Of a stretch of DNA of 35,660 nucleotides, positions 9,506-35,224 are shown piece after piece. This stretch comes from a virus. The translations under genes and the position numbers were made by a program. Under the pieces are notes generated by a model. It was not told where the DNA came from. It saw nothing but the letters and a program-made list of their open reading frames with translations, and did not search any database. The number at the start of each line of letters is the position of its first letter. The first letter of the stretch is position 1. The stretch is from IMG/VR virus record IMGVR_UViG_3300021960_007424, positions 1 to 35,660 of that record; one strand, written 5' to 3'.

Positions 9506-9534
9506 ATTATAACATATTTCGTATTAGTTGTCAA
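9506..9534 (-). promoter_or_regulatory. Sigma70-type promoter for the 9.5-6.3 kb operon
   Basis: TTGACA at 9534-9529, 17-base spacer ending ATGT, perfect TATAAT at 9511-9506, followed by a TATAATATATTATA palindrome over the -10. Probably the strongest match to consensus in the window. Confidence 0.9.
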
Positions 9535-9541
9535 GTTAAAT

Positions 9542-10687
9542 TTAAAATAATTTGCCAATATCAATATAAAAGTTTGTCGAAGTATCCAATTGCTTGGATT
9601 TGGTGACTCTTCTCTCACCTTTCTTATAAAAGCGCTCATCCAACTTACACCAGCGGTCTTTATTGGCCCATGCTCCATTAATGTTGATTGTCAAAGGCAT
9701 TTTTGTACTGACAATGGTTTCTCCATTTGGAGCATCAAAAGAAAACTCGAGACCTTGACCACTCTTTGCAAATGACAAAGAGGATGAAGGATCATTCAAG
9801 AGCGCGACTCTATCATGGAACTTGGAGTTCCCAATCGAATTAAGAACCTGCACCGTGCCTTTGGTGTCGACAAAGCATGCTGCGACCATTTCTTTGCTAG
9901 TAGAGCCCGATAGTCCAAGTCGGCCGAGCAACCTTGTTCTCAGCTTTCCTGAAGAGTCGGATAGAGTCAGAAGATCGATAAAAGCGCTAATAGCTTGGCC
10001 TCCTATAGACTTTCTAATAGAGCTTATATTTGATGGCTTCACTGGTTCGTCTCTTAACTTGTGCGCTTCTTTTGTTAAGTCAATTACTCTGTTTAGATGT
10101 GTGCTTGTTTCTGCGCCATATTCTCGAGAAAAGTTGGAAAGAATTTTTTTAGAATCCGACTTTTTACTCGAGAACCTTTCGCCGGTGTTGCTCTCAAATA
10201 CTCCACGTCCAACAACGTCAAACCCCAAGCCGCAAAGAGTAGACAAGTAAGTACCAGACGCTACTTGAATGTTCATCGACCCTTTCTTGTTCCTGCCTAT
10301 GTAGAGTTTTAAAGAGATCTCTCTTACATCCTCTAATGTATTTTCGTTATACACCTCGATGTTGATGTCTGACTTTTGAGACACACCTTCCTTCAAGCCA
10401 AGTCTATTCATTGCTACAATCTTAAATGTGCGATTAGAATAATTTTGCTTTAAAGAATTTGCGATACTTTCTGCGGCTGCAATGCAGAGAGGTTCTCTTG
10501 TGGCGATCTCCGACATTACAAACTTAAGCTCTTTAGAGCCAAGTCCCAATGCTGAAATGTAATTAGCATAAGTTGACTCATAGAAGGACTGTGGCAGGAT
10601 AGACAGTGGCCCTAGGTCTTGAGCAATCAACTCCATTGTTTTATATTCACATGCGTTCTCAGCGTATTTAACAGTATTCTTAGACAT
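9542..10687 (-). CDS. Possible PD-(D/E)XK-type endonuclease next to a DNA methyltransferase
   Basis: A 381-aa protein with its own promoter and CGGAG before the ATG. The segment KSDINIEVY (residues 105-113) followed by REISLKLY (122-129) gives D107 and S125-x-K127 on two strands 20 residues apart, the arrangement of PD-(D/E)XK nucleases in which the acidic residue is replaced by Ser, as in the Cfr10I/NgoMIV group. A helical region (194-250) and a beta-rich end (FSFDAPNGETIV; TININGAW) follow. The neighbour upstream is an N6-adenine methyltransferase, so a restriction-modification pair is a reasonable hypothesis. No overall family match is recognised and no target can be predicted. A non-restriction phage nuclease remains possible. 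Confidence 0.75.
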   Translation of the reverse strand: MSKNTVKYAENACEYKTMELIAQDLGPLSILPQSFYESTYANYISALGLGSKELKFVMSEIATREPLCIAAAESIANSLKQNYSNRTFKIVAMNRLGLKEGVSQKSDINIEVYNENTLEDVREISLKLYIGRNKKGSMNIQVASGTYLSTLCGLGFDVVGRGVFESNTGERFSSKKSDSKKILSNFSREYGAETSTHLNRVIDLTKEAHKLRDEPVKPSNISSIRKSIGGQAISAFIDLLTLSDSSGKLRTRLLGRLGLSGSTSKEMVAACFVDTKGTVQVLNSIGNSKFHDRVALLNDPSSSLSFAKSGQGLEFSFDAPNGETIVSTKMPLTININGAWANKDRWCKLDERFYKKGERRVTKSKQLDTSTNFYIDIGKLF

Positions 10688-10719
10688 ATATTCTCCGTTG
10701 TTGTTTGTTTGATGTTAAT

Positions 10720-10748
10720 AACATAACACGCTATGGTTTGGTTGTCAA
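10720..10748 (-). promoter_or_regulatory. Sigma70-type promoter for the possible endonuclease gene
   Basis: TTGACA at 10748-10743, 17-base spacer ending GTGT, TATGTT at 10725-10720. The -35 starts 2 bases after the methyltransferase stop, so the two genes of the putative pair are independently transcribed. Confidence 0.85.
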
Positions 10749-10749
10749 G

Positions 10750-12201
10750 TTATTTATGAAAGATTTCTGACATTTTTTTCTCCAAAGAGTTTGACAAGAC
10801 AACATTTGATTTGATTGTCTCTTCGAAATCTTGAGGGTTGTGGCCGTGATCCTTAAGCGTATTAAACATTCGAATGTGGCACTCAACGATGTTGTCTGGC
10901 ATGATGTCTATCCCATAAAGGTTCTCGACAACTACTTCTGGGTCTACACCCAAAGCCAATCGGTAATCCAATATCTCAACAAGAAAGTTCCCATTTCCAC
11001 ATGCAGGATCGATAAAGGTCTCGCTTATGTCAAGCCATTCCGCCTTAGAAACTTGAGACATCATCTCTCTTATTAGTTCTGAAGGCGTGAACACCTCCCC
11101 ATATTGCTTGACTCGCTTCTCTGACTTTGTTTGCGTTGCGTCTTTCTTTTTTGATGACTTTCTTGTCTTTGGCGATAAGATGGACTGGATGTAAGCAATT
11201 TCCTTCATGGTTACTCCAAACATCTTATAGTAGTCTAGGTCTGAGTGATCCTTCGATAGGTCGATCTTGGGTATAGATGAGAATACAATCTCATTTCCAA
11301 AGCCTGACCACTTTGCCGTTTTGAAGATGTACGTCATTAGTTCAGAGTTGAGAAAGTGCTCCAGTCGCTTACCTTCCACGTCATTATCAACAAGAATGAA
11401 GTATCCCATATCAGTGCAGCCCAACTTGCCATCATCGTAGAAAGCCTTAACATATCCTGATCTCGACCACATGACTTTTTTCTTTGAAGCAATGCTCTGC
11501 TTGACAGAAGAATACCAAATCTTGTTGTTTGTATGGAAGATTGGGTATATATGTTCTGAGGTCTTAACCTCGGATACCGTTATCTCCACACTGTCTCTCT
11601 CCGAAATCAAAGAAAAGTATTTATCAATCATTTTGTCAACAGCTTCTCTCTTGGGGTCTTTGCTCATGAGCAATTTAGATATACCAAGAGAACATTTACT
11701 TATCTTTTTCTCATGAAGCTTCTTGGCATGTCGAATTACATTGTGACAAGTGACATAGTCATAGTTCAAAGTAAACTTATCTTTTGTGTCAAATATCACT
11801 TTCTTATGGACGCCCATAGAGTCCTTGCAAAAGTCATTTGGTATATACAGAGAGTCATTATCAATAGGAAAGCTAAATGATTTCCCATCTTTTGTGATGT
11901 TGGTGCTCCCAGTTGTAGGCTGTTTTACAAGTTTGTAGTTGCTGAAGGTGCTTCCAACTCCAGGAAAATGATGCCCAGTGTCGAAGTTGATCTCCTGTAG
12001 GTCATTTTCCTTTAGGATCTCAAATACTTTATTGCTCGGAGATCCCCAACTAGTTGGACTAATCCAAAGCAGAGATCCACCATCGACTAGCCACTCGTTG
12101 ACAGCCTTATCTGTAAAGATGGGCCAAAGCTTGTGCTGTGTCTTTTTCTTCGTTGTGTTGTCTTGGAATGGTGGGTTTCCAAATATTTTTGTAAATTTCA
12201 T
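10750..12201 (-). CDS. N6-adenine DNA methyltransferase with permuted motif order
   Basis: A 483-aa methyltransferase. The catalytic motif IV NPPF is at residues 9-12, at the very N-terminus, followed by LLWISPTSWGSPSNK and a target-recognition-like middle (about 110-350). The S-adenosylmethionine half comes last: motif X (YGEVFTPSELI, about 367-377), motif I (DPACGNGNFLVEIL, 398-411) and motif II (YGIDIMPDN, 429-437). Sequence style is that of the Eco57I/HsdM group, where the normal order is the reverse, so this looks like a circular permutation giving a beta-type order. It should methylate adenine N6 in phage DNA, for protection or regulation. It has its own promoter and GGGAGG site. The putative nuclease lies downstream. 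Chemistry is confident; the target is unknown. Confidence 0.92.
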   Translation of the reverse strand: MKFTKIFGNPPFQDNTTKKKTQHKLWPIFTDKAVNEWLVDGGSLLWISPTSWGSPSNKVFEILKENDLQEINFDTGHHFPGVGSTFSNYKLVKQPTTGSTNITKDGKSFSFPIDNDSLYIPNDFCKDSMGVHKKVIFDTKDKFTLNYDYVTCHNVIRHAKKLHEKKISKCSLGISKLLMSKDPKREAVDKMIDKYFSLISERDSVEITVSEVKTSEHIYPIFHTNNKIWYSSVKQSIASKKKVMWSRSGYVKAFYDDGKLGCTDMGYFILVDNDVEGKRLEHFLNSELMTYIFKTAKWSGFGNEIVFSSIPKIDLSKDHSDLDYYKMFGVTMKEIAYIQSILSPKTRKSSKKKDATQTKSEKRVKQYGEVFTPSELIREMMSQVSKAEWLDISETFIDPACGNGNFLVEILDYRLALGVDPEVVVENLYGIDIMPDNIVECHIRMFNTLKDHGHNPQDFEETIKSNVVLSNSLEKKMSEIFHK

Positions 12202-12219
12202 ATTTCCTCCCTTTTACAT

Positions 12220-12248
12220 AGTATAACATTTTCTCTATCATTTGTCAA
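12220..12248 (-). promoter_or_regulatory. Sigma70-type promoter for the methyltransferase gene
   Basis: TTGACA at 12248-12243, 17-base spacer ending ATGT, TATACT at 12225-12220. Confidence 0.87.
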
Positions 12249-12253
12249 GTGAA

Positions 12254-15200
12254 TTATCCTAATAATTTCCAATTTCTTGATAATCCCCCACGAGTCGAGA
12301 AACCCCATGTGGCATTGTGCTGAGGCCATTCAAGAACATATAGGCGATGAGTGTATATTATATCTCGAGATGGATCTACGCCCCAACAATTGATCTTCTG
12401 TGTTTCCATATTGGAGTCAATCACCGTTACTTGATAGTATGGCTTTCCACCTTTGGTTTTTCTCTCGACAACATCAGTTGGAATACACCATCCTTTACCA
12501 AGTTCTTTGTCATACTCAGATATCGGCATGATGCCTTGCATCTCAAAGAACTTGTATGCTTTGGTTGGAACAACCATGTTGATTGGATAAATTCCCGTCA
12601 ATGCTTGCAAGTGATTGATACGCTCTCCTTTGGTGAACTCACCTTCGTCTCGATACTTCTCAATGTTCTCTCCAAGACCCTTCTTGTTCTTTGGCTTGTC
12701 AACGACAACCGCAGACCAGAAGTGCTTGTCTCCGAAAAACCTGTCATCCATCAAGCATTCCATCGCTCCGGCTCGACACATGGCGTCTAAGGACTTCTTG
12801 TTGACTTTGCGGGCTACGACCCCTTTGTCGAACAAAAGATCCTCTACGGAGGCAAATGGACGCTTCTCGATGATCTCATCGATTGCAGCATCTCCGAGAC
12901 CCTTGATGGTTGTTAGAGGAGAAATCAATCTTCCATCGACAACTTCCCAACGCTTTCCTGACGTATTGATGTCCAATGGCTTTACTTTGTATCCAAACGA
13001 ACGAGCAATGTTGATTGCTGCTTCTTTACGTTTCTCGGGTTCATGATCCAAGAAAGAAGCAAGCCAAGCATCTTGATAGTAAGTTTGCAACCAAGCGCAT
13101 TGATACGAGATAATGCTGTAAGGAATTGCGTGATTCTTTGAGAAACCATAGCCGGAGAAGTATTCCATCTTGTCCCAGAGAACCTTAGCATCTTTGAAAG
13201 ACATGCCTTTGTTCTCGCAACCTTTGATGAAGCGTTCGTAAAGATCTTTCTTCTTTTTCATCTTGGTCTCGGACAAACCTTTCTTTGTCAACAACTTACG
13301 CAATACGTTTGCATCGGTCATTGTAATGTTGTCCCCGAGAACGTTCACCAAGTTCATGATATCCTCTTGGAATACAATCAAACCAAAGGTCTTACCAAGC
13401 ACTTGTTCAATCAAAGGATGATCATACTCGACGTCGTCTTCTCCGAACTTTGCTTTCACATACATTTTATCAACACCAGCAGACAAAGGACCGGGACGAA
13501 AGATTGCAGATACAGTAGCAATTTCTTCGATTGAGGACACTTTAGCTCCTTGGCCTAGTCGTTGCATACCCGAGTTCATAAACTGGAAAATACCGGCAAA
13601 TTTGCCCTCGTGAAACACATCTCTGTACACCTTTTGATCGCTCAAGTCAAGAACTGAAGGATGAAGGTTCTGATTGTACCAACGCTTGATGTCATCAAAT
13701 GTCGGATTAGCATTGCCTTCTGAGATCAAGATACGCTCAATTGCATCCTCGAACACTTTTAGAGTTTCGAGACCAAGGATGTCAAACTTGATAAAGCCAA
13801 GAGGTTCAAGGTGACGAACGTTCTGACCTTCCGACCATGGCGTCTGACGAATGCCCTTGGAGGTAATCAAAGGCATCTTTGCTGGAAGATAATCTCCAAT
13901 GATTGCACCAGCAGCATGACGACCAATTGATCTCGGTTGACCAATCAAACCAAATACTTGAGATTGGATATGAGGATAGTTGCTAAAAAATTCTTGGAGT
14001 GTCTCGGAGAACTCGCATACCTCGTCGAACGTCGGAGTGTAAACCCCTGCTTTGATTCCATGTCGCTTCTTCGCCAATGGAGTTGCTTCTGCAAGCATTG
14101 CCTTTGTCACTTTGTTTACCTCAGTGAAAGGAACTCCTTCTCGTTTGGAGATGTCCTTGATCAAGGATGACAATTGCAAGGTGTTGAAGTTGGAAATAAA
14201 AGCAACAGAGTCCTCGCCCCACTCCTCAACCATCTTGTCTTTGATAAGAGAGTTATCCGAGAAGTCGATATCAATATCCGGAAAGCCCGATGACCCGCGA
14301 GTAAGGAAGCGCTCAAAAGGAAGGTTCCACTTGATTGGATCAATCTGAGTAATCTTCAAAAGAAAAGACAGAAGAGAACCCGATGCAGAACCACGAGCAG
14401 GTCCAACAAAGCAATATTCCCAAGAGAAGTCAACGATGGCCTTTGTAGCAAGAAAATACTCAGAGAACTTTTGAGATGAGATAACATCTAATTCTTCTTC
14501 GAGTCGTCGAGAGTATTGCTGTTTGGTGGCTTTGCTTTCATTTCGCAAGTATAGACCCAAAGCTTTCTCAGCAAGATCTCGGAGAGCTTCATCAGCGCTC
14601 TTGTCGCTTGGAACCATAAAAGAAGGAAGCTGCACAGAAGTGTCAGGAAGAAAATCTTCAATCTGCTCGAAAGCGATAAAGGCTGTGTTGGTGATTGATT
14701 CCATAACGAGATCATCGCTATAAGACACATCGAAATCATTAGAGTATCGTTTATATGATTCCCACATTTCTTGAGCGTTCTTAGGATATAGTTCATAGCC
14801 GATCTCCTCGATGGACTCTGGAATATTGTCGTCCATCCAAGCAGGCATTTTTCCTAACCAACCAAGTCGCTTGTAAACCTCACGATCTCGCCAAGCATCT
14901 GGTCGAGGATAGTGAGAATCGCAAGTAGAGACCAACTTAAGATCAAGTTCACCTGCTACTTTAATTATGGCCTGATTTAACAAATGTTGCTCTGGAATGT
15001 TATTCCATTGCAATTCGCCATAGAAACGGTCACCGAGAAGATCTTTGAACTTTTTAAGGTTCTCGAGCATATCAGATGCAATTGCCTCAACGCCTTCCTC
15101 TTGATGCTTCCACATTGATTCAGCAGCGATGCCTCCTAGACACGCTGTAAGGACGATTACGCCCTCCTGATGTTCTCTAAGCATATCGAAGTCAATACGT

Positions 15201-15676
15201 GGCTTACGATAGAAATAATCGCCACTGAAGGACTTGGAAACCATCTGATAGATGTTCTCGAGACCCTTCTGATTCTGCGCGAGAAGAACGATATGGCGCT
15301 TGCGAGACAACGCTCGCTTGTCATTGCGTTGCTCATCCTCAACCACCATAGCAGAATCTCCAGATTCAACTTCTTTCGCACGCTTTTTGTCTGCTGCGAT
15401 CTCGTTGCGGAGATTCTGCCACTCATCCAAAGATTCGATATAATATGCTTCAACACCAAAGATTGGCTTGAAGTCCTTGCCTTCGGCTTTCATTTCTTTT
15501 GCTCGCAACAATTGATACGACAAGCCGTTCATGGTGCCGTGATCTGTGAGAGCAAGCGCCCGAGATCCATTCTCAAAGGCGAAGTTCATGTGCTCTTGCG
15601 GAAAGCCGAAACCGTCAAAGAGCGAGAAGCACGAGTGTCCGTGCAAGTTTACAAATTGTTCTTTTCTTAAATTCAT
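12254..15676 (-). CDS. dnaE: DNA polymerase III alpha subunit (DnaE-type replicase)
   Basis: An 1140-aa family C DNA polymerase, close to full bacterial length. An N-terminal PHP domain keeps its putative metal ligands: HGHS at 12-15, LTDHG at 43-47, FGVEAYY at 73-79, and TCDSHY at 251-256. The palm has VGPARGSASGSLLSF (424-438) and the catalytic PDIDIDFSD (466-474). The C-terminal part has an OB-like region (YYQVTVIDSNMETQKINCWG). No recognisable tau-binding tail or separate proofreading domain is seen, so the PHP site may supply 3'-5' exonuclease activity. With DnaB-like helicase and 5'-3' exonuclease in the window it is likely the phage replicase. Its leader (promoter to start codon) is shared nearly verbatim with two other genes. 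Confidence 0.97.
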   Translation of the reverse strand: MNLRKEQFVNLHGHSCFSLFDGFGFPQEHMNFAFENGSRALALTDHGTMNGLSYQLLRAKEMKAEGKDFKPIFGVEAYYIESLDEWQNLRNEIAADKKRAKEVESGDSAMVVEDEQRNDKRALSRKRHIVLLAQNQKGLENIYQMVSKSFSGDYFYRKPRIDFDMLREHQEGVIVLTACLGGIAAESMWKHQEEGVEAIASDMLENLKKFKDLLGDRFYGELQWNNIPEQHLLNQAIIKVAGELDLKLVSTCDSHYPRPDAWRDREVYKRLGWLGKMPAWMDDNIPESIEEIGYELYPKNAQEMWESYKRYSNDFDVSYSDDLVMESITNTAFIAFEQIEDFLPDTSVQLPSFMVPSDKSADEALRDLAEKALGLYLRNESKATKQQYSRRLEEELDVISSQKFSEYFLATKAIVDFSWEYCFVGPARGSASGSLLSFLLKITQIDPIKWNLPFERFLTRGSSGFPDIDIDFSDNSLIKDKMVEEWGEDSVAFISNFNTLQLSSLIKDISKREGVPFTEVNKVTKAMLAEATPLAKKRHGIKAGVYTPTFDEVCEFSETLQEFFSNYPHIQSQVFGLIGQPRSIGRHAAGAIIGDYLPAKMPLITSKGIRQTPWSEGQNVRHLEPLGFIKFDILGLETLKVFEDAIERILISEGNANPTFDDIKRWYNQNLHPSVLDLSDQKVYRDVFHEGKFAGIFQFMNSGMQRLGQGAKVSSIEEIATVSAIFRPGPLSAGVDKMYVKAKFGEDDVEYDHPLIEQVLGKTFGLIVFQEDIMNLVNVLGDNITMTDANVLRKLLTKKGLSETKMKKKKDLYERFIKGCENKGMSFKDAKVLWDKMEYFSGYGFSKNHAIPYSIISYQCAWLQTYYQDAWLASFLDHEPEKRKEAAINIARSFGYKVKPLDINTSGKRWEVVDGRLISPLTTIKGLGDAAIDEIIEKRPFASVEDLLFDKGVVARKVNKKSLDAMCRAGAMECLMDDRFFGDKHFWSAVVVDKPKNKKGLGENIEKYRDEGEFTKGERINHLQALTGIYPINMVVPTKAYKFFEMQGIMPISEYDKELGKGWCIPTDVVERKTKGGKPYYQVTVIDSNMETQKINCWGVDPSRDIIYTHRLYVLEWPQHNATWGFSTRGGLSRNWKLLG

Positions 15677-15707
15677 ATGTCCTCCGAATTATGTTTATAA
15701 TATAACA
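15669..15707 (-). repeat. Shared leader module, copy 1 (dnaE)
   Basis: These 39 bases, from the first codons through GGAGGACAT to the -10, are identical to those before the exported-protein gene at 17043-17081, and all but the start-codon side are shared with 33467-33500. Confidence 0.9.
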
Positions 15708-15727
15708 TGTTTTGTTGATGTTGTCAA
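15699..15727 (-). promoter_or_regulatory. Sigma70-type promoter for dnaE
   Basis: TTGACA at 15727-15722, 17-base spacer ending ATGT, TATATT at 15704-15699, then the leader ATAAACATAATTCGGAGG. Confidence 0.9.
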
Positions 15728-15733
15728 GTATTT

Positions 15734-17050
15734 TTACAAACATTCATAGCGATAATTGTCTCCATCAAAAGTGGACCAGCATAAAGGTGCTACACTATGG
15801 AAATTTTTTCCATTCATAAAAGGAACAATAATGGCCGCAGAAAATACAGCTATTGTCGGTAATGCCACTTTTATAATTGAGCCTTTAGGGATTGTCTTTC
15901 TAGTCTTTGTTTTAAAAATATTTTTTTCACGTTCTTCTGTGTATAAATTTTGTTTCACATACTCTTCCTTAAATAATTTTATGAATTCTTCTCTAGCTTT
16001 TCTGTCTAAGGTTAGGCGTATTAGTTTTTCATTAATGAAATCTTCATATTCACTAGCTGCCACTTTTCTATAAAGAATGCCATAAGTTGAATTGTTAGTG
16101 ATGCGATCATAATTTTTAACTATGATCATGGAATTGCTTATTGGATAATACTTTATTGCATCGTTATTTTTAGATATAAGCCGTCGATTTTCGAAGGCAA
16201 GTCTATCATTATACAATGAATAGTTTACATCATGGTAGTCTTGGTCTAAATTAAATCTTGTACCAGGCATGACCATATTTTTCCAGTCCCAACCAGAAAT
16301 ACATGTATCAGTTGTTATCTTTGGATCAATAGTCGGAACTCCAGAAGTTATGTCACAAGAAGACAAAGGGGCAGGTACTTCTTGAGCATCTAAATATTGG
16401 TTTTCTTCGATAGCGGTTCTAAAAACAATTTGAGGATATAAGTAATTTTCTCCGCTGGTCAAGCAGCTTTCCCAAATTTGATAAGCATGTTCCTTATCAT
16501 CATAAAAATTATGAGAATCCATTTTTAATTCAGAAAATATTTGATTTTTTTCTAAAGCGGATATTGACTGAATTGCTTTTAGATTCGAAACTACTTTTCC
16601 ATCGTAGGTGCCTTTGGGACTACTCTCTATTAGAAAAGATTCGCCTTGTCTTTTATAGATCCAATTGCCATCTATTGTGGTTTCAACGATTGGCTGACGA
16701 CCTGAAAGATCTATTAAGTATTCTAAAAAAGGTTCAATATTGCTATCTCCAGACACTAAGTCTTTGCAGATTTTATTTATTTCCCTAAATGACAAATTTA
16801 ATTGACATTCCACATATTCATCCTTAGTTGGATCAATATCAGAGCAAGGATCTGATCTTTCAATTTCATCGAATGTATTCAAAGAAGGTTTAATCATCTG
16901 ACCTTCTATGTGTAAGGTATCAAATATTATTTCTGAAGAATTAAGATTGTGGCAGTGGTATGGTTGCGAACCTGCATGACACCCATGTGTATCAGTATTG
17001 CCACTATGTGCCGAAATAGTATTTATTAAAATTAAAAACAAAAAATTCAT
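15734..17050 (-). CDS. Exported Cys/His-rich protein with C-terminal membrane span, probably acquired
   Basis: A 438-aa protein. Residues 1-14 (MNFLFLILINTISA) form a short signal peptide, followed at 15-34 by an HSGxTDxxGCH...YHCH motif that is known at the start of secreted bacterial proteins. The middle has eight or so cysteines that could form disulphides outside the cytoplasm. A hydrophobic segment near 393-412 (IIKVALPTIAVFSAAIIVPF) may anchor it, with a short Cys-containing tail (SVAPLCWSTFDGD). The gene is AT-rich, with many ATA/AGA-type codons unlike dnaE beside it. It is a one-gene unit between two copies of the same leader. A cell-surface role such as exclusion of other phages is possible but unproven. 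Export is inferred from sequence. Confidence 0.85.
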   Translation of the reverse strand: MNFLFLILINTISAHSGNTDTHGCHAGSQPYHCHNLNSSEIIFDTLHIEGQMIKPSLNTFDEIERSDPCSDIDPTKDEYVECQLNLSFREINKICKDLVSGDSNIEPFLEYLIDLSGRQPIVETTIDGNWIYKRQGESFLIESSPKGTYDGKVVSNLKAIQSISALEKNQIFSELKMDSHNFYDDKEHAYQIWESCLTSGENYLYPQIVFRTAIEENQYLDAQEVPAPLSSCDITSGVPTIDPKITTDTCISGWDWKNMVMPGTRFNLDQDYHDVNYSLYNDRLAFENRRLISKNNDAIKYYPISNSMIIVKNYDRITNNSTYGILYRKVAASEYEDFINEKLIRLTLDRKAREEFIKLFKEEYVKQNLYTEEREKNIFKTKTRKTIPKGSIIKVALPTIAVFSAAIIVPFMNGKNFHSVAPLCWSTFDGDNYRYECL

Positions 17051-17081
17051 ATGTCCTCCGAATTATGTTTATAATATAACA
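17043..17081 (-). repeat. Shared leader module, copy 2 (exported protein)
   Basis: Identical over 39 bases to 15669-15707. The 34 bases 17052-17085 are also identical to 33467-33500 before the dnaB-like gene. Confidence 0.9.
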
Positions 17082-17101
17082 CACTATAGATTGTTTGTCA
17101 A
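17073..17101 (-). promoter_or_regulatory. Sigma70-type promoter for the exported-protein gene
   Basis: TTGACA at 17101-17096, 17-base spacer ending GTGT, TATATT at 17078-17073. It overlaps the last codons of the small gene upstream. Confidence 0.9.
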
Positions 17102-17266
17102 GTCAGAATTGTAAAAAATTTCTATATCGTCTTTCTCGACAAAATAATCCTCCTCTGTGTCAAAGTGATAAACTCTGTATAGGGTTTCACCATGTTTGTT
17201 TTGATGTACTTTCAAGATCATGCATAGACCAAACATCCATTTGCACTCAACTAAATCTCCGATCAT
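17084..17266 (-). CDS. Small SH3-like barrel protein
   Basis: A 60-aa protein starting at the ATG at 17266, which overlaps the preceding TGA (ATGA) and follows GGAGGAAAA; the longer frame has no ribosome site. It is all short strands: GDLVECKWMFGLCMILKV, LYRVYHFDTEEDYFV, and DDIEIFY. The opening GDLV plus a later G-(I/M)-I pattern is shared with the next gene (17263) and with 27162, suggesting three diverged copies of one SH3-like family. No function is known. Confidence 0.72.
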   Translation of the reverse strand: MIGDLVECKWMFGLCMILKVHQNKHGETLYRVYHFDTEEDYFVEKDDIEIFYNSDLTNNL

Positions 17267-17484
17267 TTTTCCTCCAAGTGTTCGAGATAAAACTCCATAA
17301 GCCGCTCTTCTTGCTGCAGTGGAATCCAAAACACGCCTATTGCATCTTCTTTTGTACCATCATAAGATTGATACACATTTCTTTCAATTGTCAATATAAT
17401 GCCAAGTTTCTTTAGCGGATCATATCTTGACTTGACAATGCCGCCCGACTTGAAGACAACAAGGTCTCCGACATTAAACATCAT
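17263..17484 (-). CDS. Small SH3-like barrel protein, paralogue of neighbours
   Basis: A 73-aa protein with CTTGGAGGTGG before tandem ATGs at 17484 and 17481. VGDLVVFKSGGIVKSRY, KLGIILTIERN and IGVFWIPL form a beta pattern close to that at 27162; the C-terminal helix is FYLEHLEEK. It overlaps both neighbours, so translation is coupled. Function unknown. Confidence 0.72.
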   Translation of the reverse strand: MMFNVGDLVVFKSGGIVKSRYDPLKKLGIILTIERNVYQSYDGTKEDAIGVFWIPLQQEERLMEFYLEHLEEK

Positions 17485-17665
17485 CCACCTCCAAGTATAA
17501 TACTTGATTAGTAGAAGAAATTATGTTCCACTCAAAAGGACTGACGATTAGTGGCTGCACTCCAAGTTGTTCTAAGAATACCGCATTTCTTTCTCGCGCT
17601 TGGCAGAAAGAAGCAGCTCGAGGAACAAAATAGTTCTTACCTTTTATTACATATGCATATTTCAT
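17474..17665 (-). CDS. Small protein of unknown function
   Basis: A 63-aa protein whose ATG at 17665 overlaps the stop of the GIY-YIG gene (ATGA) with GGAGAACAA upstream. It opens with a strand (MKYAYVIKGKNYFVPR), continues with a helix (FCQARERNAVFLEQLGV) and ends with two strands. No known family. It overlaps the next gene by 11 bases. Confidence 0.65.
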   Translation of the reverse strand: MKYAYVIKGKNYFVPRAASFCQARERNAVFLEQLGVQPLIVSPFEWNIISSTNQVLYLEVDDV

Positions 17666-18648
17666 TTGTTCTCCGTTAACATTTTTAGTTGTTCTATCGT
17701 TAGAGCCAGATTATAAAGCTCGACTCCTTCGTCGATGTGTTGTTGAATGCTTCTTGCTTCTTCTAAAAGAAGATTGTTTTTGTCTTCGTCTTCGAACTCT
17801 TTTAGAACGTTCCACTCAAACGCGTCCTCTCCGTATTTATCAAAATCTTCTTGAAGAAGTTTGTTTGGGTGATAATTTCCTCGGAGGCCTGTGAGGTGTC
17901 CTTTCCACCTCAATTCTCCTCTTGTTGTTTCTCCAATGTAAACTTTGTTGTTTATTAGGTTTATTATTTGGTAAACGCAACTTGGTTGCTCTGCTTTTCT
18001 TTTTTCAAGATACCGAACTCTCTTTTCAGCTATCTTTTCTTTGTTTTCTTCATAATACTGGGCTTGTTGCTTTGCTATCTTTTCTTTGTTTTCTTCACGA
18101 TAATGGGCTTGTTGCTTTGCTATCTTTTCTTTGTTTTGAGCACGATACCGAGCGTTCTGCGCTGCTATCTTTTCTTTGTTTTCTTCATAATGCCGAGCTT
18201 TTTGTTCTGCTATCTTTTCTTTGTTTTCTTCACGATAATGGGCTTGTTGCTTTGCTATCTTTTCTTTGTTTTGAGCACGATACCGAGCGATCTTTTCTTT
18301 GTTTTCTTCACGATACCGAAAGGAGTATTCTGCTATCTTTTCTTTGTTTTCTTCATAATACCGAGCGTTTTTCTCTGCTATCTTTTCTTTGTTTTCGGAA
18401 CGATACCGAGCACCTTGCTTTGCTATCTTTTCTTTGTTTTGAGCACGATACCGAGCACCTTGCTTTGCTATCTTTTCTTTGTTTTCTTCATAATACCTAG
18501 CATTACGCTTTGCTATCTTTTCTTTGTTTTGAGCACGATATTGGGCTTTGCATGATTTGCATTGGCGGGTGTGGCCGTCTTTCGTACTCTTGTTTCTAGA
18601 GAACTCGACAAGTGGCTTTTGGATTCCGCATTTGCTACATTTTTTCAT
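17662..18648 (-). CDS. GIY-YIG nuclease with zinc finger and tandem-repeat linker
   Basis: A 328-aa protein in three parts. Residues 4-33 form a C-x2-C...C-x2-C zinc finger (C4, C7, C30, C33). Residues 41-216 are twelve copies of a 15-residue unit starting NKEKIA and rich in Lys, Glu, Arg and Tyr; the sixth copy is 4 residues short. Residues about 225-300 are a GIY-YIG nuclease domain: VYQI, then KVYIGETTRGELRWKGH and a closing KYGEDAFEWNVL segment. The layout resembles free-standing homing endonucleases with an extended linker between DNA-binding and cutting parts. It is embedded in an operon with gcvH, joined by ATGA overlaps. Cutting activity is inferred from motifs. Confidence 0.88.
   Translation of the reverse strand: MKKCSKCGIQKPLVEFSRNKSTKDGHTRQCKSCKAQYRAQNKEKIAKRNARYYEENKEKIAKQGARYRAQNKEKIAKQGARYRSENKEKIAEKNARYYEENKEKIAEYSFRYREENKEKIARYRAQNKEKIAKQQAHYREENKEKIAEQKARHYEENKEKIAAQNARYRAQNKEKIAKQQAHYREENKEKIAKQQAQYYEENKEKIAEKRVRYLEKRKAEQPSCVYQIINLINNKVYIGETTRGELRWKGHLTGLRGNYHPNKLLQEDFDKYGEDAFEWNVLKEFEDEDKNNLLLEEARSIQQHIDEGVELYNLALTIEQLKMLTENK
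18001..18528 (-). repeat. 45-bp tandem repeat array (12 units) inside the GIY-YIG gene
   Basis: Twelve in-frame units, eleven of 45 bp and one of 33 bp. Each contains a near-invariant AACAAAGAAAAGATAGC core (minus strand) encoding NKEKIA, with the rest more variable. Unit number is likely to vary between related phages. Confidence 0.92.
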
Positions 18649-19049
18649 TGTTCCTCCGTTATTTCGCAGCCCAAAAAGGCTTTGTACTCCGCTTCATCCA
18701 TCAGGTTGTCTAGGTCTGAAGCATTAGACACTTGTATCTTAATCAGCCATCCAGAATTGTATGGATCGACATTGACTGGATGTTCATCACCAGCGAAATC
18801 GACCAACTCTTCATTCACTTCCAGAACAGTTCCTGTTACTGGAGATTTCAAATCACTCACGGCTTTGTTAGATTCAATCTCGCCGAACTCTTCTCCTTGC
18901 TCAACATCCTCTTCCAGATCTGGAAAGCCAACATAGACAACATCACCTAGTTCACTCTGAGCAAAGTCTGTAATTCCAACTATAGCAACATCTCCTTCCA
19001 TTCGAACCCATTCATTGGATTCTGTAAACTTCAAACCAGCAGTAGACAT
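18645..19049 (-). CDS. gcvH: Glycine cleavage system H protein (lipoyl carrier)
   Basis: A 134-aa protein of normal GcvH length. In the host enzyme this small carrier bears lipoic acid and shuttles the aminomethyl group from glycine between the P, T and L proteins. The lipoylation site is clear: ESNKAVSDLKSPVTG with K62, and the surrounding fold blocks are present (HEWV-like NEWVRMEGD, VGITDFAQSELGDVVYV, NSGWLIKI). The start has AAGGAG; the stop overlaps the GIY-YIG start (ATGA). No P, T or L gene is in the window, so it would work with host partners or as a lipoyl acceptor. It is an auxiliary metabolic gene. Confidence 0.95.
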   Translation of the reverse strand: MSTAGLKFTESNEWVRMEGDVAIVGITDFAQSELGDVVYVGFPDLEEDVEQGEEFGEIESNKAVSDLKSPVTGTVLEVNEELVDFAGDEHPVNVDPYNSGWLIKIQVSNASDLDNLMDEAEYKAFLGCEITEEQ

Positions 19050-33466: not shown

Positions 33467-33500
33467 TGTCCTCCGAATTATGTTTATAATATAACACACT
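33467..33500 (-). repeat. Shared leader module, copy 3 (helicase)
   Basis: These 34 bases are identical to 17052-17085 and nearly so to the dnaE leader; they cover the -10, the untranslated leader and the ribosome site. Confidence 0.9.
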
Positions 33501-33524: not shown

Positions 33525-34475
33525 TTATCTTTTTACGCTCCTCATGATTGCTTGTAGGGTTTCAAAGTTGAGATGACCGGCATCATCCTCGAAAAGCATT
33601 TGAGTAAATTTTATTTTATCAAAGAAAGGTTCAAAATCATTTACTGCCTTTGTGATCAACTCTCTATTCATTGGTCTGATATTTGGATAATACAATTGCA
33701 TGATCTTATAATTCTCTTTTAATAATTTTTCTTCTTTCTCGATGTTTTGGTGAATCTTGAGTTTCTTGCCTTGCATTGCACAATCTCTAACGAGATCAGA
33801 GACATCATACTCATCCTCACGAATAAGATAGGGAAAGCGTTTGGCGATTGTTTTCAGGCCAGCGCCTTTGATTCCCGGTAAATTGTCTGAAGGGTCTCCA
33901 GCAATTGCTCGAGCCAATGCAAAGTTCTTTGGATGAATCTTGAACTCTTCAATGATGGAGTCCAGCGTCATCGTCTTTTTTTGGATTGGTCTATAAATAG
34001 ACACGTCCTCACGACAAAGTTGAAAAAAATCTTTGTCAGAAGAGATAATTGTTTTATGCCAATCTTTATATCTACTGTGATTGATTACGTGTGCGATGAT
34101 ATCATCTGCCTCTGTAAAATCAGCAATAAGTTGTATTACGGGCATTTGGTTGAGATACTCCATCAACCTTACTTGTTGATATCCTTTGTTGGCTTCTTCC
34201 TTCTCTGGCTCTAATTCAATCATTCGCCTGTTGAATCTCACAGGTTTGCGGCCACCTTTGTAATCCTTGTTCATAGAACGTTTACGTTGAGAGCCCTCAT
34301 GGCCATCCCAAGCGACAATAACTTCGTTGGCGTTAAAGTCCCTAGCCACCTTCTGTAGTGACTTTAAAAAGCCAATTGTGCCGCCCACAGGGTTGCCTTT
34401 GCGGTCCATGTGTGGGCTAATCACATAAGAGCGCAGAAACATGTTCAGCGCGTCGATAATAATAACGTTTTTCAT
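33525..34475 (-). CDS. 5'-3' exonuclease / flap endonuclease (T4 RNase H-like)
   Basis: A 316-aa FEN-family nuclease that removes RNA primers and flaps. Acidic metal ligands are in place: D8 in IIDALN, D57 in VAWDGHEG, E122, D124 and D125 in TEADDIIA, D147 and D149 in SSDKDF, and the helix-hairpin-helix GDPSDNLPGIKGAGLKT (193-209) that binds DNA. CCGGAGGATAA precedes the ATG, which overlaps the previous stop (ATGA). It belongs to the replication set with helicase and DnaE. Confidence 0.95.
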   Translation of the reverse strand: MKNVIIIDALNMFLRSYVISPHMDRKGNPVGGTIGFLKSLQKVARDFNANEVIVAWDGHEGSQRKRSMNKDYKGGRKPVRFNRRMIELEPEKEEANKGYQQVRLMEYLNQMPVIQLIADFTEADDIIAHVINHSRYKDWHKTIISSDKDFFQLCREDVSIYRPIQKKTMTLDSIIEEFKIHPKNFALARAIAGDPSDNLPGIKGAGLKTIAKRFPYLIREDEYDVSDLVRDCAMQGKKLKIHQNIEKEEKLLKENYKIMQLYYPNIRPMNRELITKAVNDFEPFFDKIKFTQMLFEDDAGHLNFETLQAIMRSVKR

Positions 34476-35224
34476 TTATCCTCCGGTATAAAACCTAATT
34501 TTTTATCCTCTAAAAAAGCACAATTCTTACAATATGTTTTTACGTTTTTTAAGTGATGATAATCAATGGTTTGAGTAACCCACTCTTTTGTTGCATCATG
34601 CTTGATTAGTTTGTTAATTTCTTCGTTGATTTTTTTCTTTCTTTTGCCAAACTCGGTCATATTTTCAAGCCGGTGTATGATAATTGGTGTATCGAATTCT
34701 TCATGACATTTTTTTTTACTCAAAGAAATGAATTTTTCAGGAGCTTCATAACTGAATGATGGACCTTCTTCTCCAACTTTTATAATTTTTGTTACAGGAG
34801 CAGATCGATCTTTAAAAAACTCTGTTACTACCTTAAGATTACTATTGTAACACTTAAATTTTCCTGATTTTAGTTTTTTTATGTTACTTGAGTGACATCT
34901 AGGGCAAGAAGGACAATCGACATGAACTAATGATGTATTTTTCATAGAAGCATATTGATGACCTTGTGATTCTATGAGTTTTCTAGTTTTATTCCATAAC
35001 TTCGTGTATGATTCTGGCTTCCAGCCATGTTGTATCATAAGATTATCAGTTGATCCACAGCATTCACAACTATCTTTTAAGATTTTTGCGCGCCTTTCTT
35101 TCCATTCTTTTGTCTCCCATGGTTGATATTTACTTTGCCTTTCTTCTTTATCTTCATTGAATAAGTCCCAAAATGTATCTGCATCAATCTCGCCCGATAA
35201 GAAATTGTAGAAATATTCTTTCAT
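34472..35224 (-). CDS. HNH-like nuclease with zinc-ribbon insert, probably a selfish endonuclease
   Basis: A 250-aa protein. Residues 35-70 follow an HNH start (WKERRAKILKDSCECCGSTD, then LMIQHG). A zinc ribbon sits in the middle (CPSCPRCHSSNIKKL and a later FKCYNS). Near the end, YHHLKNVKTYCKNC (about 222-235) resembles the usual closing H...C-x2-C of an HNH domain, so the fold may be split by an insert. The gene is more AT-rich than thioredoxin and exonuclease on either side, which hints at transfer. It is tightly packed between them by overlaps. Homing endonuclease is the best guess. Confidence 0.75.
   Translation of the reverse strand: MKEYFYNFLSGEIDADTFWDLFNEDKEERQSKYQPWETKEWKERRAKILKDSCECCGSTDNLMIQHGWKPESYTKLWNKTRKLIESQGHQYASMKNTSLVHVDCPSCPRCHSSNIKKLKSGKFKCYNSNLKVVTEFFKDRSAPVTKIIKVGEEGPSFSYEAPEKFISLSKKKCHEEFDTPIIIHRLENMTEFGKRKKKINEEINKLIKHDATKEWVTQTIDYHHLKNVKTYCKNCAFLEDKKLGFIPEDK

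Follow-up and report, generated by a model that had tools for sequence, protein, structure and literature searches.

How phages gain single accessory genes without breaking essential operons, by random joining or by an exchange guided by boundary sequences, is a matter of debate, and the locus described here raises this question in a concrete form. In a viral stretch of 35,660 nucleotides (IMG/VR record IMGVR_UViG_3300021960_007424; hereafter, the window), a gene for a protein of 438 residues, g438 (15734–17050, minus strand), lies between its left-hand neighbour g81 (17084–17329, minus strand) and the right-hand core neighbour dnaE (12254–15676, minus strand), which encodes DNA polymerase III alpha (Pfam DNA_pol3_alpha, 9e-48, with PHP and finger domains). 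Since g438 and dnaE each start behind a copy of one repeated leader, it may be asked whether this repeat marks the route by which the gene arrived.

The inserted gene and its empty site

The gene is AT-rich, as the earlier note on this DNA had stated, and unlike its neighbours in base composition: its GC content is 0.326 against 0.413 for the window, and its GC3 of 0.25 is the lowest of the window, together with that of an HNH-like gene at 34472. This latter gene (34472–35224), also AT-rich (GC 0.32), is absent from all relatives examined, and the thioredoxin-like gene adjoining it is found among relatives only in G007.

The g438 protein holds a hydrophobic, signal-like N-terminus (mean Kyte–Doolittle value of 1.8 for residues 2–14), just after which sits a HSGNTDTHGCHAGSQPYHCH motif of the YHYH-like type, as well as ten cysteines and a single C-terminal membrane-like segment (residues 389–415, approximately). 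Its match to YHYH_alt (NCBIfam NF033223; residues 13–34) is weak, reaching 23.3 bits (E 5.9e-5) when the curated cut-off is 30 bits. The former description of this protein as secreted has the hydrophobic N-terminus and the C-terminal segment as its basis; the best guess is that the product would be an exported, membrane-anchored envelope protein, with a role, on pure speculation, such as superinfection exclusion. No relatives of g438 were found in 26 related records, IMG/VR, 50,697 phage records, plasmids, or 84,980 prokaryote species represented by one genome each, and nothing usable was returned by Pfam, PHROGs, PDB sequences, or viral and genome contigs. Residues 331–409 have a weak match in G018 (E 0.002, 25%), and the AlphaFold model is unusable (mean pLDDT of 32).

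Searches of IMG/VR retrieved eight loci with dnaE and 73 with uvsE, the records being partly overlapping. Seven of these relatives (G001, G002, G003, G004, G006, G007, and G009; loci L005, L006, L007, L008, L010, L011, and L024) exhibit the empty site, with a single leader, that had been predicted. Their gene order is uvsE, small genes, g63, g73, g81, one promoter, and dnaE, without g438, and this promoter comes right after the end of the g81 homologue or its positional equivalent (g73 is undetected by sequence in L011, and g81 is represented partly by positional equivalents). Their dnaE genes are 82–89% identical where covered, although only 43 residues are covered in L024, and the closest relative available over the length of dnaE reaches about 89%. 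The opposite outcome, in which all relatives would carry the gene behind diverged leaders, did not occur. As judged from this gene order, g438 is confirmed as a lineage-specific insertion between g81 and dnaE. Because seven sites are empty and no relative of g438 appeared anywhere searched, a gain in the lineage of the window is the simplest reading. It is very improbable that g438 was present in the ancestor and disappeared from every relative seen: recombination between the leaders could easily remove it, but independent losses would be needed in each relative found, and the slot of distant relatives contains unrelated cargo or none.

This cargo comprises a 454-aa gene in G012 (L034), a 411-aa gene in G014 (L036), three genes in G019 (L042), several in G020 (L046), and two lipoprotein-like genes in G008 (L012), and the uvsE–dnaE slot of G015 (L037) is empty. 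An ORF of 107 aa in this slot, at L046:7185–7508, is a candidate ClpS adaptor.

The surroundings of the slot also deserve mention. A GIY-YIG gene (17662–18648), patchy among relatives, bears an in-frame array of repeats of about 45 bp (NKEKIA..) in the middle of the protein, and the gene at 18645–19049, named gcvH by eye for its likeness to the glycine cleavage H-protein, has no counterpart in related records. The interval between dnaE and g9158 (9534–12248) is a second cargo slot, here with two genes on the minus strand: an N6-methyltransferase-like accessory gene (10750–12201, own promoter at 12248) and a second accessory gene (9542–10687, own promoter at 10748). The same interval holds methyltransferase-like and other genes in G002 and G003, is empty in G004, and its cassettes tend to have a promoter each. 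In L011 (7377–8687) and L012 (7374–7754), dnaE itself is interrupted before the PDIDIDF active-site motif in what reads, by eye, as a split intein, where a stop closes the N-part and the sequence resumes in another ORF, which opens with a segment resembling a C-intein (..NGLLVHN / ..EGVTVHN). Between both halves in L011 there is a LAGLIDADG-like endonuclease ORF (a "fractured gene", also by eye).

A leader shared by three genes

The identity of 39 bases reported in the earlier note is exact, and constitutes a maximal match between an upstream copy at 17043–17081 and a downstream copy at 15669–15707 (both on the minus strand). Read on that strand, the repeat is TGTTATATTATAAACATAATTCGGAGGACATATGAATTT, which comprises an extended -10 box, the UTR, the RBS, and the ATG plus the following codons of g438 and dnaE, respectively; the start region within it, ATGAATTT, is common to both genes, and the AAACATAATTCGGAGGACAT module belongs to the dnaE leader of the window. 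The window contains 12 promoters of the TTGACA..TGTTA type (CTTGACAA, about 13 nt, TGTTATATTAT), every one on the minus strand, so that a shared -10 core is to be expected, but a shared UTR and start are not. Only six of 24,033 between-record promoter pairs from 19 related records have at least 30 nt in common downstream of TGTTA, all six at orthologous sites as far as inspected, and the identity of 39 bp is far above what the promoter consensus of this phage family yields. A 25-mer spanning the UTR and the start had no match in IMG/VR.

Both copies are preceded by TTGACA at a spacing of 17 bp, and the promoters predicted from sequence are thus TTGACA / 17 / TATATT with a TG extension for g438 (17073–17101, minus strand) and TTGACA / 17 / TATATT for dnaE (15699–15727, minus strand). 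The spacers between -35 and -10 are, however, unlike (ACAATCTATAGTG versus CATCAACAAAACA), and therefore the whole promoter has not been duplicated. No terminator-like site was detected on the minus strand from the g438 stop to the dnaE promoter. Excising one repeat period (1374 bp) would leave the dnaE promoter intact, in line with the earlier claim that removal of the segment would restore it.

Short-k assemblers err at repeats flanking atypical segments, and this one has repeats at both ends, which would fit a metagenome misassembly joining two genomes at the 39-bp repeat. Such an artefact is nevertheless highly unlikely, as ordinary reads are longer than 39 bp, paired reads span such a repeat, and g438 has a promoter of the kind seen in this phage family.

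A third copy of the leader, covering 30 bp of the repeat, is found at 33467–33496 (minus strand). It had been proposed as another cargo boundary, and this was ruled out: the gene that follows encodes a DnaB-like helicase that 14 of 18 relatives possess, and a leader preceding such a core gene is no cargo boundary. Seven close relatives, all on contigs without dnaE, have the helicase leader in identical form. As a separate observation, an extra membrane-like ORF of about 70 aa precedes the helicase promoter in L014 (3018–3270), L018 (2142–2394), and L019 (1251–1503), where it overlaps the end of an exonuclease-like gene; absent from the window and from L013 and L015, it has been inserted without a second copy of leader or promoter.

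The g438 leader matches the copy at 33467 over 34 bp, and this exact 34-mer is absent from all other fetched loci. Its upstream part (GTGTG) agrees with the helicase copy and its downstream part (CATATGAATTT) with the dnaE copy, so in sequence terms it reads as an intermediate between both.

The three carriers might alternatively be under common control through a regulatory 5' UTR, with selection keeping the leader identical and the repeat being no trace of an insertion. Two of them are replication genes, and the conservation of the helicase leader in seven close relatives would also be in agreement with this. On the other hand, in relatives with 82–89% dnaE identity the UTRs of dnaE and the helicase are unlike, which argues against any long-term constraint on the leader sequence and makes common control improbable.

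On balance, the explanation leaned towards is that g438 is a cassette gained by recombination within promoter/leader sequence that it had in common with the resident dnaE promoter. A unit consisting of promoter, leader, and one gene would have entered between g81 and dnaE in this way, through an exchange between phages or through a circle or tandem copy that reinserted. The outcome would be a promoter on each side, allowing both the cargo and dnaE to stay expressed, and the same route could lead to loss, with the 1374-bp segment as the excision product. The product would be exported or membrane-anchored, and made from the same promoter type as DnaE and the helicase.

The position of the joint is less straightforward. 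The -35 and spacer of the dnaE promoter in the window resemble those of the empty-site promoter of G007 (L011), both having an 18-bp stretch, TACTTGACAACATCAACA, and 11 of 13 spacer nt in common, whereas the UTRs are unlike. As the dnaE copy keeps TACTTGACAACATCAACA, the joint may lie outside the 39-bp leader, at the -35 itself or upstream of it, a hint that the resident -35 and spacer stayed with dnaE. The donor cassette could have brought the identity of 39 bp with it, or homogenisation could have produced it later.

The G007-like -35 and spacer are also what would be found if g438 had entered by an illegitimate, moron-style insertion between g81 and an intact dnaE promoter, the leader playing no part and becoming identical later through gene conversion. 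The occurrence of the UTR module at the helicase gene, in the window and in seven close relatives, fits this course of events as well. However, the shared part begins exactly at the -10 and carries the dnaE-native start context CATATGAATTT instead of that of the helicase, and homogenising short leaders by gene conversion is itself recombination between leaders. Illegitimate insertion is consequently regarded as a possible but rather unlikely origin.

Promoters as possible cassette boundaries in the phage family

Other sites of the family also bear on recombination at promoter/leader sequence. In the uvsE–dnaE slot, two promoters flank the cargo of G012, G014, and G019, and no other promoter pair in the records of G012 and G019 is as alike as this one. 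The -35 and spacer of the single promoter in the empty G015 recur in the left promoter of G014, and the UTR of that G015 promoter recurs in the right promoter of G012, a distribution that would be expected if the joints fall at the -10 box. An independent case with its joints at the -10 box is G026, where a cassette of 284- and 357-aa genes precedes uvsE: its left promoter retains the native spacer (12 of 13 nt with G001 and G023) and its right promoter the native UTR and start. The shared core is here only about 8 bp, and extended homology is thus not needed.

Longer repeats occur as well. In G009, a promoter is doubled as a 41-bp repeat around a small ORF and is found as a single copy in four relatives, and in G015 a 56-bp repeat flanks a 168-aa gene. 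Within records, the three longest repeats, all of at least 39 bp, lie between neighbouring promoters, although the significance of this adjacency is threshold-dependent (p=0.008 at 20 bp, 0.10 at 22 bp). The 5' promoter half AATACTTGACAAGGTATCAAAACTATG, which occurs in five records, was considered as a recombination joint and discarded, as the same downstream gene follows it in all five; after its exclusion, only the double copy of G009 was left standing.

Among 13 close relatives, promoter boundaries are filled more often (14/25) than all others (21/113, p=0.0003) and than gapped boundaries (6/30, p=0.01), tight boundaries being filled in 15 of 83 cases. With all 19 records, the difference is retained against all other boundaries (p=0.017), but not against gapped ones (p=0.17), and in a cruder test of synteny breakpoints promoters were not enriched (0.451 versus 0.432, p=0.33). 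The enrichment among close relatives could also reflect tolerance of insertions at operon borders instead of recombination there. Furthermore, 100 of 150 empty/filled insertion calls involve no promoter, whereas in 22 the insertion is upstream of a promoter that was kept, and in only 8 is it flanked by promoters on both sides. The calls are not independent of one another, since a single insertion may enter the count through several gene pairs. Leader recombination as the general route by which this phage acquires cargo, as formerly suggested, would hence account for a minority of insertions. Overall, the proposed homologous recombination at leaders is partly supported: the more frequent filling of promoter boundaries and the joints of G026 speak for it, and the small number of calls with promoters on both sides, the position of the third leader before a core helicase, and the differing spacers of the window, with that of dnaE being G007-like, speak against it.

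A broader and rather doubtful extension is that the -10 core of the repeated promoter acts as the standard cassette joint across the family. A cassette would then run from one -10 box to the next -35 and spacer, which in some members would double as a terminator hairpin, and cassettes would be gained, lost, and swapped by recombination at these joints, making up a PeSL-like system outside the T4 group.

Comparison with morons, PeSLs, and other boundary sequences

In a phage moron, an extra gene has been placed between two neighbours that adjoin each other in relatives (PMC3029335). Like morons, g438 lies between genes contiguous in seven relatives, has its own predicted promoter and an atypical composition, and is of unknown function; unlike in morons, no terminator was found after it, and its leader is an exact copy of that of the downstream gene.

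Promoter early stem-loops (PeSLs) of T4-like phages were reportedly described by Arbiol et al. in 2010 and Comeau et al. in 2014. According to a later account, they are strong promoters of sigma-70 type that recur along the genome, cassettes being inserted between copies (PMC4503421). The window resembles them in its strong sigma-70-like promoters, by consensus match only, and differs in that no stem-loop is fused to the promoter: the two slot promoters have fold z values of +0.2 and +1.1, and none of the 11 window promoters tested fell below p 0.05. PeSL cassettes exchange genes by recombination between copies, which for nearby copies also yields minicircles; what bears on such exchange here are the empty/filled pairs and the joints at the -10, together with mixed results for overall enrichment. 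PeSLs are known from T4-like phages, and the DnaE-encoding phages considered here have no established T4 kinship. Because no terminator or stem-loop was found in the window, g438 is assigned to neither class.

Some relatives come closer to the PeSLs than the promoters of the window: in G012, G014, G019, G002, G004, and G026, a GC-rich hairpin spans the -35 box (z as low as -7) in a composite terminator–promoter form. Such promoters were noted at L034:2135 and 3535, L036:4322 and 5661, L037:6939, L042:6952 and 8924, the region downstream of L008:5946 (G004:52495), G002:35176, and G026:46431, where a long GC-rich hairpin contains the -35 and the -10 comes immediately after it, giving the appearance of a terminator superimposed on a promoter.

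Other short repeats offer further parallels. The SAS of Cluster K mycobacteriophages is a 13-bp repeat of the GGGATAGGAGCCC type, present in 11–19 copies and devoid of a -10 box (PMC3203893). SAS/ESAS and the window leader are both short repeats at the starts of non-structural genes that cover the RBS, but TGTTATATTATAAACATAATTCGGAGGACATATGAATTT has two full copies and one partial copy, and includes the promoter core. Lambdoid conserved boundary sequences, for their part, are short shared sequences at module joints (as cited in PMC3029335). The window leader is likewise a short shared sequence that could guide homologous recombination, with the differences that its boundary is a promoter/leader and that its role in recombination is putative.

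By analogy, the g438 slot may work as phage morons do and also in the manner of the PeSL shuffling of T4. Its empty state, its different cargoes, and the promoter copies that flank it provide concrete, testable junctions, and suggest that promoter-bounded shuffling of the T4-like kind also takes place in an uncultured phage family.
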